DNA of 21,338 nucleotides from a virus: positions 1-21,338 of IMG/VR virus record IMGVR_UViG_3300034407_000304; one strand, given 5' to 3'. Numbering within the stretch: position 1 is the stretch's first letter; each line of letters starts with the position of its first letter. The position numbers and the translations under genes are program-made. Below the pieces are notes generated by a model. That model saw nothing but the letters and a program-made list of their open reading frames with translations. It was not told the DNA's origin and did no database searches. Shown here piece by piece: positions 481 through 3,682 of the stretch.

Positions 481-673
481 CTTTAATGCACTGGCAATCA
501 ATATAAAATAATTCACCGCCTTTAGTTTCTATTGCATCAGCCATAACATAAACTGCTCTCTTAATATTTTGTTCGCATCTTGCTTGTGTTGTTTCTGCAA
601 TAGGTGGAACCCAACCTTTACACACATCACCAACAGAAAATGTAGCGCAGTATATCATAGCCATAATCCACAT
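467..673 (-). CDS. Small membrane or secreted cysteine-containing protein
   Basis: This 68-residue product begins with a short hydrophobic stretch (MWIMAMIYCATFSV) that could be a signal peptide or weak membrane anchor. A soluble part with four further cysteines follows (DVCKGW, ARCEQN, YIDCQCIKV). I choose the ATG at 673 because it forms a TAATG junction with the stop of the metallophosphoesterase gene, with AAAGG about ten bases upstream. A TTG nine bases earlier would leave the ribosome binding site too close. The paired cysteines fit an extracytoplasmic, disulfide-bonded protein, but this is inference. It is the last gene of the late minus-strand unit and its end overlaps the convergent plus-strand gene by 14 bases. 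I do not recognise a family. Confidence 0.6.
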   Translation of the reverse strand: MWIMAMIYCATFSVGDVCKGWVPPIAETTQARCEQNIKRAVYVMADAIETKGGELFYIDCQCIKVKHQ

Positions 674-1776
674 TATAAACAAACCTTTACACGACTTACT
701 TCACCTTCTTCTTTATGATATGTAATCCCCTGCATCTGTGACCGACTACTATAAGCATGACTAGAAGCATAGGAATCTTTACCTGTTACTGCACGTAACT
801 GTTCAACAAGAACACCGCCTATCTCACGCATCATTGTGTGATGCAAGTGTCCAGTAAAATAAAATCTATGTTTAGTTCTACCCCATATATCAGGCCAGGC
901 ATCAGCCATATGCATAACAAGTCTATCTGCTTTAGCTTTATCTCCATGGTGCGCGGCAATCATAACACTTCCAAACTCATGCACAAAGAAATCAGCAGAC
1001 GTTTGTTCAACGGTCACTCTAGTATTATTCTTGTAACGCTCCGCGATTGCAAACATCACAGCCAAATAGGAAGTCTCGTTGTGATTACCACGCAGTACCC
1101 TGCATATTACCTGCTCATGTTTCTGCAACGCACAATCAATCGCCGCAGCTAACGCAGTTATTGCACACCTTAGAGAATAAAAAAATCTTTCAGATACATC
1201 GAGTGGATGTTTATTTCTAGGAGTTTGAGCATTGTTATCATCAGCGTGAGTAAGATCACCAACATCTAACACCAATGCATATTTAGATTGTGGCGAACTA
1301 GCAACACATTTAGCCATTCCAGTTTTAATTCTTTCTACCGCAATGTCAGAATTATATTCTTCACCAGTCTCGCTAGCGTGCGCTCTCATGCCTATGTGTG
1401 CGTCGGCGATAGGGTAAAGGGTAAGTAAGTTATCTTCCACCACCTCAGGAGGCTTTACAATCTCACACAGAACAATTCCATTTATAACATCTCGTATTGA
1501 TTCTGCTATATCGTTTGTATTTAAACTATCTGTTTCGTTTCTAAAATATAAACTAACATCATCAGTCTTAATCCAACCAGAATGTACAGCATTAATGTTT
1601 GCCATACCTGTTTCATTCATGGCATACTTTATACCATCATCAACTTCTTCATATTTCTTAGCTGAATTTATTCTATGCCTTAGAGCAGAGCGACTAATCC
1701 CTAGAGCCTTAGCCGCTTTGACTTGGCTACCATACTTAACAACAGCATCAAGTGCCTCTTGTTGTTTTGGTGTCAC
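673..1776 (-). CDS. HTH-metallophosphoesterase fusion protein
   Basis: This 367-residue protein has two parts. Residues about 14-36 (GSQVKAAKALGISRSALRHR) are a Fis-type helix-turn-helix, the kind used to read DNA. Residues about 120-330 carry the calcineurin-like metallophosphoesterase signature: D125-x-H127 (ADAHIG), GD at 173-174 (DVGDLTHADD), GNHNE at 230-234, HHGD at 276-279 and GHLHH at 309-313. These residues bind two metal ions and support phosphoester hydrolysis; nucleic-acid ends or cyclic nucleotides are the usual candidates. The whole metal-binding set appears intact. The start is GTG, with AAGGA six bases upstream, and it overlaps the stop of the upstream cysteine-repeat peptide (GTGA). 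The substrate cannot be read from sequence. A DNA-directed nuclease or regulator is plausible because of the HTH. Placement in the late unit behind the fibre is unusual for a DNA-metabolism enzyme. Confidence 0.88.
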   Translation of the reverse strand: MTPKQQEALDAVVKYGSQVKAAKALGISRSALRHRINSAKKYEEVDDGIKYAMNETGMANINAVHSGWIKTDDVSLYFRNETDSLNTNDIAESIRDVINGIVLCEIVKPPEVVEDNLLTLYPIADAHIGMRAHASETGEEYNSDIAVERIKTGMAKCVASSPQSKYALVLDVGDLTHADDNNAQTPRNKHPLDVSERFFYSLRCAITALAAAIDCALQKHEQVICRVLRGNHNETSYLAVMFAIAERYKNNTRVTVEQTSADFFVHEFGSVMIAAHHGDKAKADRLVMHMADAWPDIWGRTKHRFYFTGHLHHTMMREIGGVLVEQLRAVTGKDSYASSHAYSSRSQMQGITYHKEEGEVSRVKVCL

Positions 1777-1856
1777 TTTCTTTCCTTACAAATACACTTG
1801 TTTATACAAGCGCATGATTCTTTGCATATACATTTATCTCTGCATTTACAAGTCAT
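1773..1856 (-). CDS. 27-residue CxC-repeat (metallothionein-like) peptide
   Basis: This short frame encodes 27 residues: MTCKCRDKCICKESCACINK followed by CICKERK. Eight cysteines fall in four CxC pairs at residues 3/5, 9/11, 15/17 and 21/23, an exact six-residue period, with lysine, arginine and acidic residues between. Closely spaced CxC motifs are the hallmark of metallothioneins and other metal-thiolate peptides, so zinc or copper binding is a reasonable inference. Translation is supported by context. The ATG lies one base after the stop of the upstream gene, AGGA sits seven bases before it, and its TGA overlaps the GTG of the metallophosphoesterase gene (GTGA). It thus exactly fills the space between two real genes and could also couple their translation. 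It may supply or hold metal for the adjacent metal-dependent enzyme, but nothing in the sequence proves that. Confidence 0.6.
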   Translation of the reverse strand: MTCKCRDKCICKESCACINKCICKERK

Positions 1857-1857
1857 G

Positions 1858-2415
1858 TCAATTTCCTACTAATGGGTTGTCTAATGCTTCCTGTAATCTT
1901 TCACTTAATCTATCTTCTAATTGCTTTAAGTTAGAATCAATGCGCTCCTCTGTATCTCTCATTGTATCTCGCACATCTTTTTCTGTTTCTCTATTTAAAG
2001 ATTCTATTTCTCGCAAAGAAGAATTAACATCTTTATTTAATTGATTCATCTCAGCTAGTGTATTCTCTACCATTAAATCTATAGATGCTTGTGTGTCTTT
2101 AATTCTATCAGAAGATTTTTCTACCTTGTTATCTATCTTATCTATGTAACCTTCTAGCTTTAGTATATCATCACGCAGATTATTCTTAATGTCTTTACTA
2201 TACTCCAACGCACTATCTAGTTTTGTTTGGATTAGTGTGTTCTGAGATTTAATAGCACTAATATTTATATTCTGTATGATACCTTTCATATCCATATAGT
2301 CTTTGTAAACTTCAAAGCCGCCCCATAATCCACCGCCAAGTGCCGAAACAATTGGTACAAGTAACATTAACTTGCCACCTTTTATCTTTGCTCCTGCTAT
2401 TTCTACTTCAGCCAT
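1858..2415 (-). CDS. Membrane-anchored coiled-coil protein (possible inner-membrane spanin-like)
   Basis: This 185-residue protein starts with a short basic segment (MAEVEIAGAKIKGGK), then one hydrophobic helix at about residues 16-35 (LMLLVPIVSALGGGLWGGFE), then a long charged region to the end rich in heptad-like leucine, isoleucine and methionine spacing. The three lysines before the helix predict an N-in, C-out topology, placing the coiled coil in the periplasm. This is the architecture of i-spanins, but also of other structural membrane proteins, so lysis is only a hypothesis. A holin-like role is an alternative. The start has AGGAG upstream, overlapping the stop of the lipoprotein gene nine bases away, which suggests the two are made together. 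Confidence 0.75.
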   Translation of the reverse strand: MAEVEIAGAKIKGGKLMLLVPIVSALGGGLWGGFEVYKDYMDMKGIIQNINISAIKSQNTLIQTKLDSALEYSKDIKNNLRDDILKLEGYIDKIDNKVEKSSDRIKDTQASIDLMVENTLAEMNQLNKDVNSSLREIESLNRETEKDVRDTMRDTEERIDSNLKQLEDRLSERLQEALDNPLVGN

Positions 2416-2424
2416 ATCACACTC

Positions 2425-2832
2425 CTAGTTTTCAAATGATAAACTTCTTAGTTGATTAATTTCTTTTTGTAACTTTAATACTTCTAGTTCTTTCTTCTGT
2501 AATTCTAGTTCATACAATCTATTACAATCTATTCTTGATCTAGCCCTAGCACCAAGAGGTATTGTTATCCTACTGTATACACCTATGTCACCAGTTTGTT
2601 TGCTATTATCTTTTCCTTGTATAATACCTGTAACACCAAACTCCCAATTAGTTGCTGATCCTATAGCATTAGAACAATCTAATTCTCCTGCTCTAAATTT
2701 ATCTGCTTGAAAGTTTTGATTTGCGTTAGGTAAAGAAAGATTCAAAGAGTTAGATGCGGAATCAGCTAAAGCTATTATGGCAGTACAACCAGAGATAAAT
2801 AATACTAATACTATTAATAATACTATTCTCAT
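2425..2832 (-). CDS. Phage lipoprotein with C-terminal coiled coil
   Basis: The 135-residue product has a lipoprotein signal: a basic start, a hydrophobic core (VLLIVLVLFI) and the lipobox ISGC with the lipidated cysteine at residue 16. The residue after it is threonine rather than aspartate, which fits sorting to the outer membrane. The mature part has a segment WEFGVTGIIQG followed by GDIGVYSRITIPLG that alternates like a pair of beta strands, flanked by two cysteines (LDCSNA and RIDCNR) that could pair. The last 30 residues (YELELQKKELEVLKLQKEIN) are a coiled coil. The start overlaps the upstream stop by four bases (ATGA). A role in the host envelope is clear; whether it acts in lysis (o-spanin-like), superinfection exclusion or something else is not. 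Confidence 0.78.
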   Translation of the reverse strand: MRIVLLIVLVLFISGCTAIIALADSASNSLNLSLPNANQNFQADKFRAGELDCSNAIGSATNWEFGVTGIIQGKDNSKQTGDIGVYSRITIPLGARARSRIDCNRLYELELQKKELEVLKLQKEINQLRSLSFEN

Positions 2833-3203
2833 TTTTTTATCTTAGAACATATGCGTGAAGCTATTAATGTTACCTGCTCTTTACTTTTAAATACTTTTGA
2901 TTCGGTACAAATGTAAACAGCTTTAGCCATATCTCTTGATCTTATATAAACATCAAAACTTTTTCTTTTATTATACCCTACCTCTATGACATTAGAAGTA
3001 GAAGCAAACGGAACTGGTTTCCATTTGTCAGTAAAGACACCTATCTTATACCATGACACATCACTTCTGCGATTAAATATTTTTAAGTTTGCTACTGATA
3101 CACCCTCCACATAAGACGACTCTAGCTTTGGGTAAGCTGGTGTCATCTCATGCGCGTGTAAAGAACTACACAAACATAAAGCTATTATTACTTGGCGATA
3201 CAT
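2829..3203 (-). CDS. Secreted beta-rich protein, possibly Ig-like
   Basis: This 124-residue protein begins with a clear signal peptide (MYRQVIIALCLCSSLHA, likely cut after residue 17). The mature 107 residues alternate in a beta-sandwich manner: a valine/asparagine strand (VSVANLKIFNRRS), a tyrosine/tryptophan strand (WYKIGVFTDKWKPVPF) and strands VIEVGYNKR, FDVYIRSRD and AVYICTESK. Two cysteines (YICTES and SRICSK) could form a disulfide. The strand order and the PVPF element recall the N-terminal domain of fimbrial chaperones, but I see no diagnostic motif, so this is low-confidence inference. The start overlaps the end of the upstream secreted-protein gene by 16 bases, and its own stop overlaps the lipoprotein start. 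The ribosome binding site is weak, so coupling is likely. Confidence 0.7.
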   Translation of the reverse strand: MYRQVIIALCLCSSLHAHEMTPAYPKLESSYVEGVSVANLKIFNRRSDVSWYKIGVFTDKWKPVPFASTSNVIEVGYNKRKSFDVYIRSRDMAKAVYICTESKVFKSKEQVTLIASRICSKIKK

Positions 3204-3682
3204 TCCGCTACTATTAATGCTGTGTAATTACCAGCAGGTAACGATTTAGTGCTACCATACTGAGCAGTAGAAGCTACAGTAAACCAAGTGCTACCAGCTA
3301 ATGTTAAGTTAAACTCAGTTACATTATTGTAAGTAACCTTAGCCCCTTCGTATGCACTCATATCTGATACGCTTACCTGTCCTACGACTGTACTACCTGT
3401 CCATGCAACTGAGTCATTAAGTGTTGGGCTTGATGAGAAGCTGTTAGGGTGTGTAAACTTAGCCTTATAATAATCTGCTTGCGCTACATCAATTCTAATT
3501 GACGCTGGAACGCCACCATCTGCTGGCACTGTGGACAATTTGTAAGGAAGGGGGTGTCCATAAACACCAGAGGTTTCTGTCCATACAGAACATTTGGGTT
3601 GTACTTGACCTGTAATGGGAGAATCAATTGCCATTGCAGAGCTTGTTGATAATAAAAATATTAATGGTACTATTTTTTTCAT
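3188..3682 (-). CDS. Secreted beta-rich protein, possibly pilin-like
   Basis: A 164-residue product with a textbook signal peptide (MKKIVPLIFLLSTSSAMA, cut after AMA at residue 18). The mature part is rich in serine, threonine, valine and glycine and reads as a beta sandwich. There are two cysteines, one near the mature N-terminus (PKCSVW) and one near the C-terminus (VAECIAK). They could tie the first and last strands together, as in some secreted adhesins and pilin-type domains. There is no lipobox and no membrane segment after the signal. The start has AGGA six bases upstream and lies eight bases after the stop of the previous gene. The function is unknown. Export to the periplasm or outside is the only firm statement. 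A host-envelope or virion-surface role is inferred from its place behind the tail fibre. Confidence 0.72.
   Translation of the reverse strand: MKKIVPLIFLLSTSSAMAIDSPITGQVQPKCSVWTETSGVYGHPLPYKLSTVPADGGVPASIRIDVAQADYYKAKFTHPNSFSSSPTLNDSVAWTGSTVVGQVSVSDMSAYEGAKVTYNNVTEFNLTLAGSTWFTVASTAQYGSTKSLPAGNYTALIVAECIAK

Follow-up and report, generated by a model that had tools for sequence, protein, structure and literature searches.

The window analysed here is a stretch of 21,338 nucleotides from a viral contig (IMG/VR record IMGVR_UViG_3300034407_000304, positions 1 to 21,338). Close to one of its ends it carries a series of tightly packed genes on the minus strand, among them a frame of only 27 codons. 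The features are the following:

673-1776, minus strand: gene for an HTH plus calcineurin-like metallophosphoesterase (MPE), PHROG 704, 'DNA repair exonuclease' (phrog_704, E=8e-85)
1773-1856, minus strand: gene of 27 codons plus stop for a peptide with four CxC pairs, MTCKCRDKCICKESCACINKCICKERK; its frame is open in all loci of the eight-cysteine form (class A)
1864-1867, minus strand: AGGA, a ribosome-binding-like site 7 bases 5' of the peptide ATG
1858-2415, minus strand: gene for the MAEVE... (MAEV) protein, with an N-terminal hydrophobic segment and a long predicted coiled coil
2425-2832, minus strand: gene for a lipoprotein-like protein of 135 aa, part of a conserved cassette and the source of anchor alignment A1
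2829-3203, minus strand: gene for a secreted HEMTPAYP protein of 124 aa, in the conserved gene order of the cassette
3188-3682, minus strand: gene for a secreted protein of 164 aa with a predicted beta-sandwich structure (pLDDT 77)

No tRNA and no Rfam RNA was found in the window. The strand of the short frame was missing from the preliminary description; the plus strand of 1773-1856 is interrupted by a stop, and the frame is that of the minus strand. Read from 1856 to 1773, it gives a Lys-rich peptide of 27 residues with a net positive charge, in which eight residues (30%) are Cys, versus 0.5% in the remaining proteins of the window. Histidine and aromatic residues are absent from it, and a single Tyr is found in a few relatives (CIYKC). 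The CxC pair is the sole arrangement of its cysteines: the first pair is CKC and the others CIC, CAC and CIC, placed at residues 3/5, 9/11, 15/17 and 21/23 with a step of exactly six, in the layout X2-[CXC]-X3-[CXC]-X3-[CXC]-X3-[CXC]-X4. This exact period, already claimed in the preliminary description, is found a single time in the window and never in 100 dinucleotide shuffles of it; given eight Cys in 26 positions, such a perfect register has a probability of ~4e-6. The signals reported earlier are also in place. The ATG (1856-1854) starts one base past the TGA of the preceding gene (1860-1858), AGGA lies seven bases before it at 1867-1864, and the peptide's own TGA (1775-1773) overlaps the GTG start of the MPE gene (1776-1774) as GTGA. 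A ribosome-binding-like site precedes every distinct peptide of 27-30 aa among those listed, and a signal peptide is absent from this form.

Conservation argues strongly that this frame is a gene. A search anchored on the MPE, made without regard to the peptide, yielded 28 viral loci, 24 of which extend upstream of the MPE start; the frame is intact in 23 of these 24, and every Cys is kept in all 23 close relatives that have it. A second anchor equally unbiased for the peptide, the lipoprotein-like gene of 135 aa (alignment A1; 348 viral relatives), gave 80 loci, with the eight-Cys peptide in 20 and a five-Cys relative in the same cassette in 11. Among distinct copies of the peptide the pooled pN/pS is ~0.21, indicating strong purifying selection across lineages, and synonymous sites are near saturation between lineages. 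Between the window and contig L426, for instance, 21 of 72 nucleotides are different, yet every Cys has been retained (simulated P 8.5e-5). Frame 0 is free of stops in 72 locus rows, and the other two forward frames all contain stops, bearing in mind that these rows partly repeat the same contigs and that locus counts are not independent events. Conservation extends to the six-residue spacing and to residues other than Cys (K4, K8, A16, K24, R26, K27 and, mostly, I10 and I22); where a copy was found by DNA pattern, the pattern itself dictates part of its Cys and Lys codons, and their invariance was not used as evidence. On the opposite strand, nearly every copy leaves two frames open across the interval; we take these as by-products, since it is in the sense frame that silent changes spare the Cys. 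In the window, an antisense open frame of 149 codons (1595-2044, plus strand) spans the peptide and both neighbours and is probably a by-product of composition. All copies of the peptide found come from uncultured viral contigs. Judged by these sequence comparisons, the frame is a genuine, unannotated phage microprotein gene. The preliminary description, which had announced a real microprotein too short for length-limited gene callers and had proposed the comparison of synonymous and nonsynonymous change, is borne out on these points: at 27 residues, the gene has stayed unannotated in marine phages.

The same data bear on the idea that the frame acts as a Cys-sensing leader, in which ribosomes pausing at the eight Cys codons would regulate the overlapping downstream gene. 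Polycysteine short ORFs in mycobacteria reportedly act as regulatory leaders (work attributed to Canestrari et al., 2020, cited in PMC9094748), and the phage frame resembles them as a short ORF rich in Cys codons placed just before a gene, with a start-stop overlap and with downstream genes that vary. In contrast with those leaders, it is conserved at the protein level, including non-Cys residues and the exact period, despite near-saturated synonymous sites, although in pattern-found copies the search itself dictates part of these residues. Besides, the stop and start overlap, leaving no space between the peptide and the next gene for a terminator or antiterminator. Because non-Cys residues are conserved and there is no such gap, we consider a leader improbable.

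The preliminary description had coupled the peptide to the MPE and suggested metal delivery or redox control of this enzyme. Two facts speak for a dedicated partnership: the GTGA overlap in the window's clade, and the presence of the MPE next to the peptide in 23 of the 36 viral contigs that carry the strict eight-Cys form. In the remaining 13 the peptide has no adjacent MPE. Seven of them have the same upstream gene and the peptide, followed by a protein of 56-57 aa (MASPKPTKP(D/A)LWSRAKSEA...) instead of the MPE, and six diverged contigs (L055, L158, L164, L174, L177 and L179) have the peptide beside other genes. Conversely, in contig L021 the peptide is missing between a MAEV-type upstream gene and an MPE 86% identical to that of the window. 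Relatives that keep the two flanking genes but lack the peptide had been named beforehand as the observation that would speak against the proposal; L021 is the one case found, and it refutes the pairing while leaving the gene unaffected. A constant co-occurrence with the MPE is thus not observed, partnership as a general rule is contradicted, and metal delivery to the enzyme is unsupported since the two occur apart. The adjacency is most likely an accident of certain lineages, and the peptide no dedicated cofactor chaperone for the MPE; because of this decoupling, we regard an MPE-specific metallochaperone or redox partner as highly improbable. Among annotated sequences, the MPE has its closest relatives in Sulfitobacter phages.

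The CxC-x3-CxC unit is found in other peptides of these phages. Class B comprises peptides of 26 aa with five Cys from ~50 contigs, of the form M[SAP]Y[LFI][NK]R[VIL][LIV]R[AS][IL]L[AN]MPCNCCDKC[QK]C[GN][KNRS] (in shorter notation M.YLNR.LRAIL.MPCNCCDKCQCG.), in which silent changes abound (15 protein variants against 25 at the nucleotide level). It is also an unannotated microprotein family, found in other lineages in the same cassette as class A and usually joined by TGATG or TAATG to the start of a membrane-protein gene; the copy at L422:5998-6078, for example, overlaps such a start, in this case of a gene of phrog_2524. Class C is an ORF of 12 codons, MCKCNGKCICGK, present in three nearly identical copies (L235:144-182, L245 and L262) in the same kind of cassette and overlapping the next gene by ATGA, which possibly places it among the shortest conserved phage genes. 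These copies came from a search with the pattern CKCxxKCIC, which proved too loose, as the other newly fetched matches were noise. In class D, MSCKCKGKCSCG forms the N-terminus of DUF6321 proteins. Tags of the CKCKGKCSC type were seen on such proteins in L458, L489, L491 and L497, and for the DUF6321 homologues in annotated cyanophages and pelagiphages the match mostly excluded the tagged N-terminus. Class E bears a lipobox (MKYLIIAILGATLVGCACMPC..CPCDKVCACKGECICDK) and lies beside a trypsin-like protease; it is a lipoprotein-like peptide of 43 aa with CxC repeats, seen in other phages (L283, L287, L290 and L317) between the protease gene and a gene of 210 aa. Classes A to E share the CxC-x3-CxC step, and B also shares its position with A; this is a likeness of motif and not an established homology. 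A general scan of viral contigs for four CxC pairs was set aside as mostly low-complexity or out-of-frame noise, with L055 as the sole true new member.

In its conserved order, the cassette begins with genes for secreted proteins (~200, 298, 164 and 124 aa), followed by the lipoprotein-like gene of 135 aa and the coiled-coil MAEV gene, which most class A lineages have next to the peptide on its upstream side; then come an optional two-TM protein, the CxC peptide, a small membrane protein and an endolysin. Pelagibacter phage HTVC115P has one cassette gene in common, a distant homologue of the MAEVE... protein, with no CxC peptide near it. The secreted protein of 164 aa (3188-3682, minus strand) weakly resembles chaperone-usher pilins in Foldseek comparisons (E ~0.005 for the best of these) and, judging by the predicted structure, could form with its neighbours a phage-encoded pilus-like module. 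In the neighbourhoods read, no gene for metal transport, sensing or resistance was recognised beside the peptide.

This arrangement raises the possibility that the peptide is a regulator of lysis, that is, a membrane-surface accessory of the downstream membrane protein, antiholin-like or setting the timing of a holin, with its cysteines as a metal or thiol switch. In the six diverged contigs a small membrane-protein gene lies near or directly after the peptide, with an endolysin gene next in several; the endolysins are clear (Glyco_hydro_108, phrog_465). The 152-aa type of membrane protein has weak holin matches (PF11351 GTA_holin_3TM at E=0.0018, below the cut-off, and phrog_3427 holin at E=0.017). 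The five-Cys form, with an N-terminus predicted by eye to be amphipathic, is joined to a membrane-protein gene in most rows. Adjacency to holin-like and endolysin genes is seen in most rows of class B and in the class A lineages that have diverged, and is missing from the window's own lineage and from the MASPKPTKP lineage. Against a role in lysis, two large groups, with the MPE or the MASPKPTKP... protein next, keep the peptide without such a neighbour, and some other five-Cys copies are followed by a terminase-like gene (MSRQLTEKQ) or a Lys-rich one (MKGV). The assignment as holin is itself weak: the MFGLL/MLGIL type of membrane protein belongs to phrog_2524, of unknown function, and has no holin match, and its structure model was of too poor a quality to be used. 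A role in lysis, the main rival reading, is possible but unlikely in our view. A broader version, which we find quite unlikely, would make all these CxC-x3-CxC peptides of 12-30 residues (eight-Cys, five-Cys, four-Cys, lipoprotein and domain-fused) a marine-phage metal-thiolate set that, at the lysis module, acts as metal- or thiol-gated regulators of membrane proteins, a metal-sensing lysis timer. Several cassettes also encode, close to the CxC peptide, a small membrane protein whose DADGDGVVTDEE motif resembles an EF hand (PF13202, E=0.018), as at L055:5585-5905 (minus strand).

Known families offer no match. At E<=10 the peptide has no hit in Pfam, PHROGs or NCBIfam, a profile search of the PDB gave chance-level matches only, and no metallothionein model is matched by profile. 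In annotated cultured phages, tblastn searches that masked low-complexity sequence by default returned nothing relevant, and cultured CRP-6, CRP-13, HMO-2011 and Vibrio phages have no CxC peptide at the same membrane-protein gene. A pattern scan of bacterial and archaeal genomes gave only low-complexity or antisense matches, with no Lys-rich short ORF and no host homologue; these genome and phage-database negatives depend on the choice of pattern and on the masking. Our searches of the open-licence literature turned up no phage-encoded protein described as metallothionein-like.

Closely spaced CxC pairs are a hallmark of metallothioneins, as the preliminary description had noted in claiming a metallothionein-like layout, and eight Cys in 27 aa arranged as four CxC agree with that claim; a short Lys-rich chain lacking both His and a signal peptide is likewise in keeping with how copper/zinc metallothioneins are built. 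By broad criteria the peptide qualifies: it is short and very rich in Cys with CxC pairs, and has few or no aromatic residues or His. The bacterial metallothioneins SmtA and BmtA (Metallothio_Pro) are small, Cys-rich prokaryotic metal-binding proteins, from which the phage peptide differs in having CxC pairs only, no His and half the length; it fits neither the SmtA type nor any catalogued family model. Its Cys layout is closest to those of short fungal and ciliate copper-metallothioneins. The family 8 Cu-MTs of Neurospora crassa and Agaricus bisporus have 26 residues, seven Cys and the pattern X2-[CXC]-X5-[CXC]-X3-[CXC]-X2-C-X3 (PMC4755600). They share with the phage peptide nearly its size, the building from CxC, the X2 before the first pair and one X3 spacing. 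Their X5, X3 and X2-C spacing departs from the uniform X3 of the phage peptide, which does not follow the fungal pattern, has linkers rich in Lys, Ile and Asp, is phage-encoded and shows no detectable sequence homology to them. Ciliate family 7b CuMTs, such as those of Tetrahymena, are built from repeated CKCX2-5CXC with CKC predominant and Lys flanking Cys (PMC4862169). The phage spacing fits this scheme, but those proteins are much longer and the phage peptide, at 27 aa, has one CKC only, so it would work alike at most. We thus see it as a peptide that probably works like a metallothionein and belongs to no named family.

CxC motifs can also be redox-active, and the pairs might be thiol-disulfide couples rather than metal ligands, in a redox peptide or disulfide catalyst, or belong to a RiPP precursor. 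The 27-30 aa form has no signal peptide, and Pfam searches of neighbouring genes, which covered part of the window's genes, revealed no modification enzyme; we hold this reading very doubtful.

The explanation we favour, with a little more confidence than doubt, is that the microprotein is a small cytoplasmic metal or thiol buffer made late in infection. We infer that it would be translated inside a late operon, from its own ribosome-binding site. Under the reducing conditions of the cytoplasm, the eight thiolates, in four evenly spaced CxC pairs along a Lys-rich chain, could then close around soft metal ions, Zn(II) or Cu(I), in a small cluster, like short fungal and ciliate metallothioneins, and the peptide would act as a buffer alongside envelope and lysis proteins. 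The recurrence of a two-CxC unit in the 26-aa form (MPCNCCDKCQC), the 12-aa form, the DUF6321 N-terminus and the lipobox form supports this buffer, several settings being what is expected of a portable metal site. The placement ahead of membrane and lysis genes counts against it, because it could mean a role in lysis. So do the absence of a match to any metallothionein profile, the lack of a copy in the annotated cultured phages searched, and the fact that the neighbourhoods read showed no recognisable metal-related gene beside the peptide.

The uniform CxC-x3 repeat makes the peptide a clean, synthesizable test object. More generally, the family libraries searched lack a class of conserved phage genes below ~30 codons. 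Should metal binding be confirmed, few known metallothioneins would be as short as this peptide, and marine phages would have in it a conserved product of their late genes that hints at control by metals or thiols while infection proceeds.
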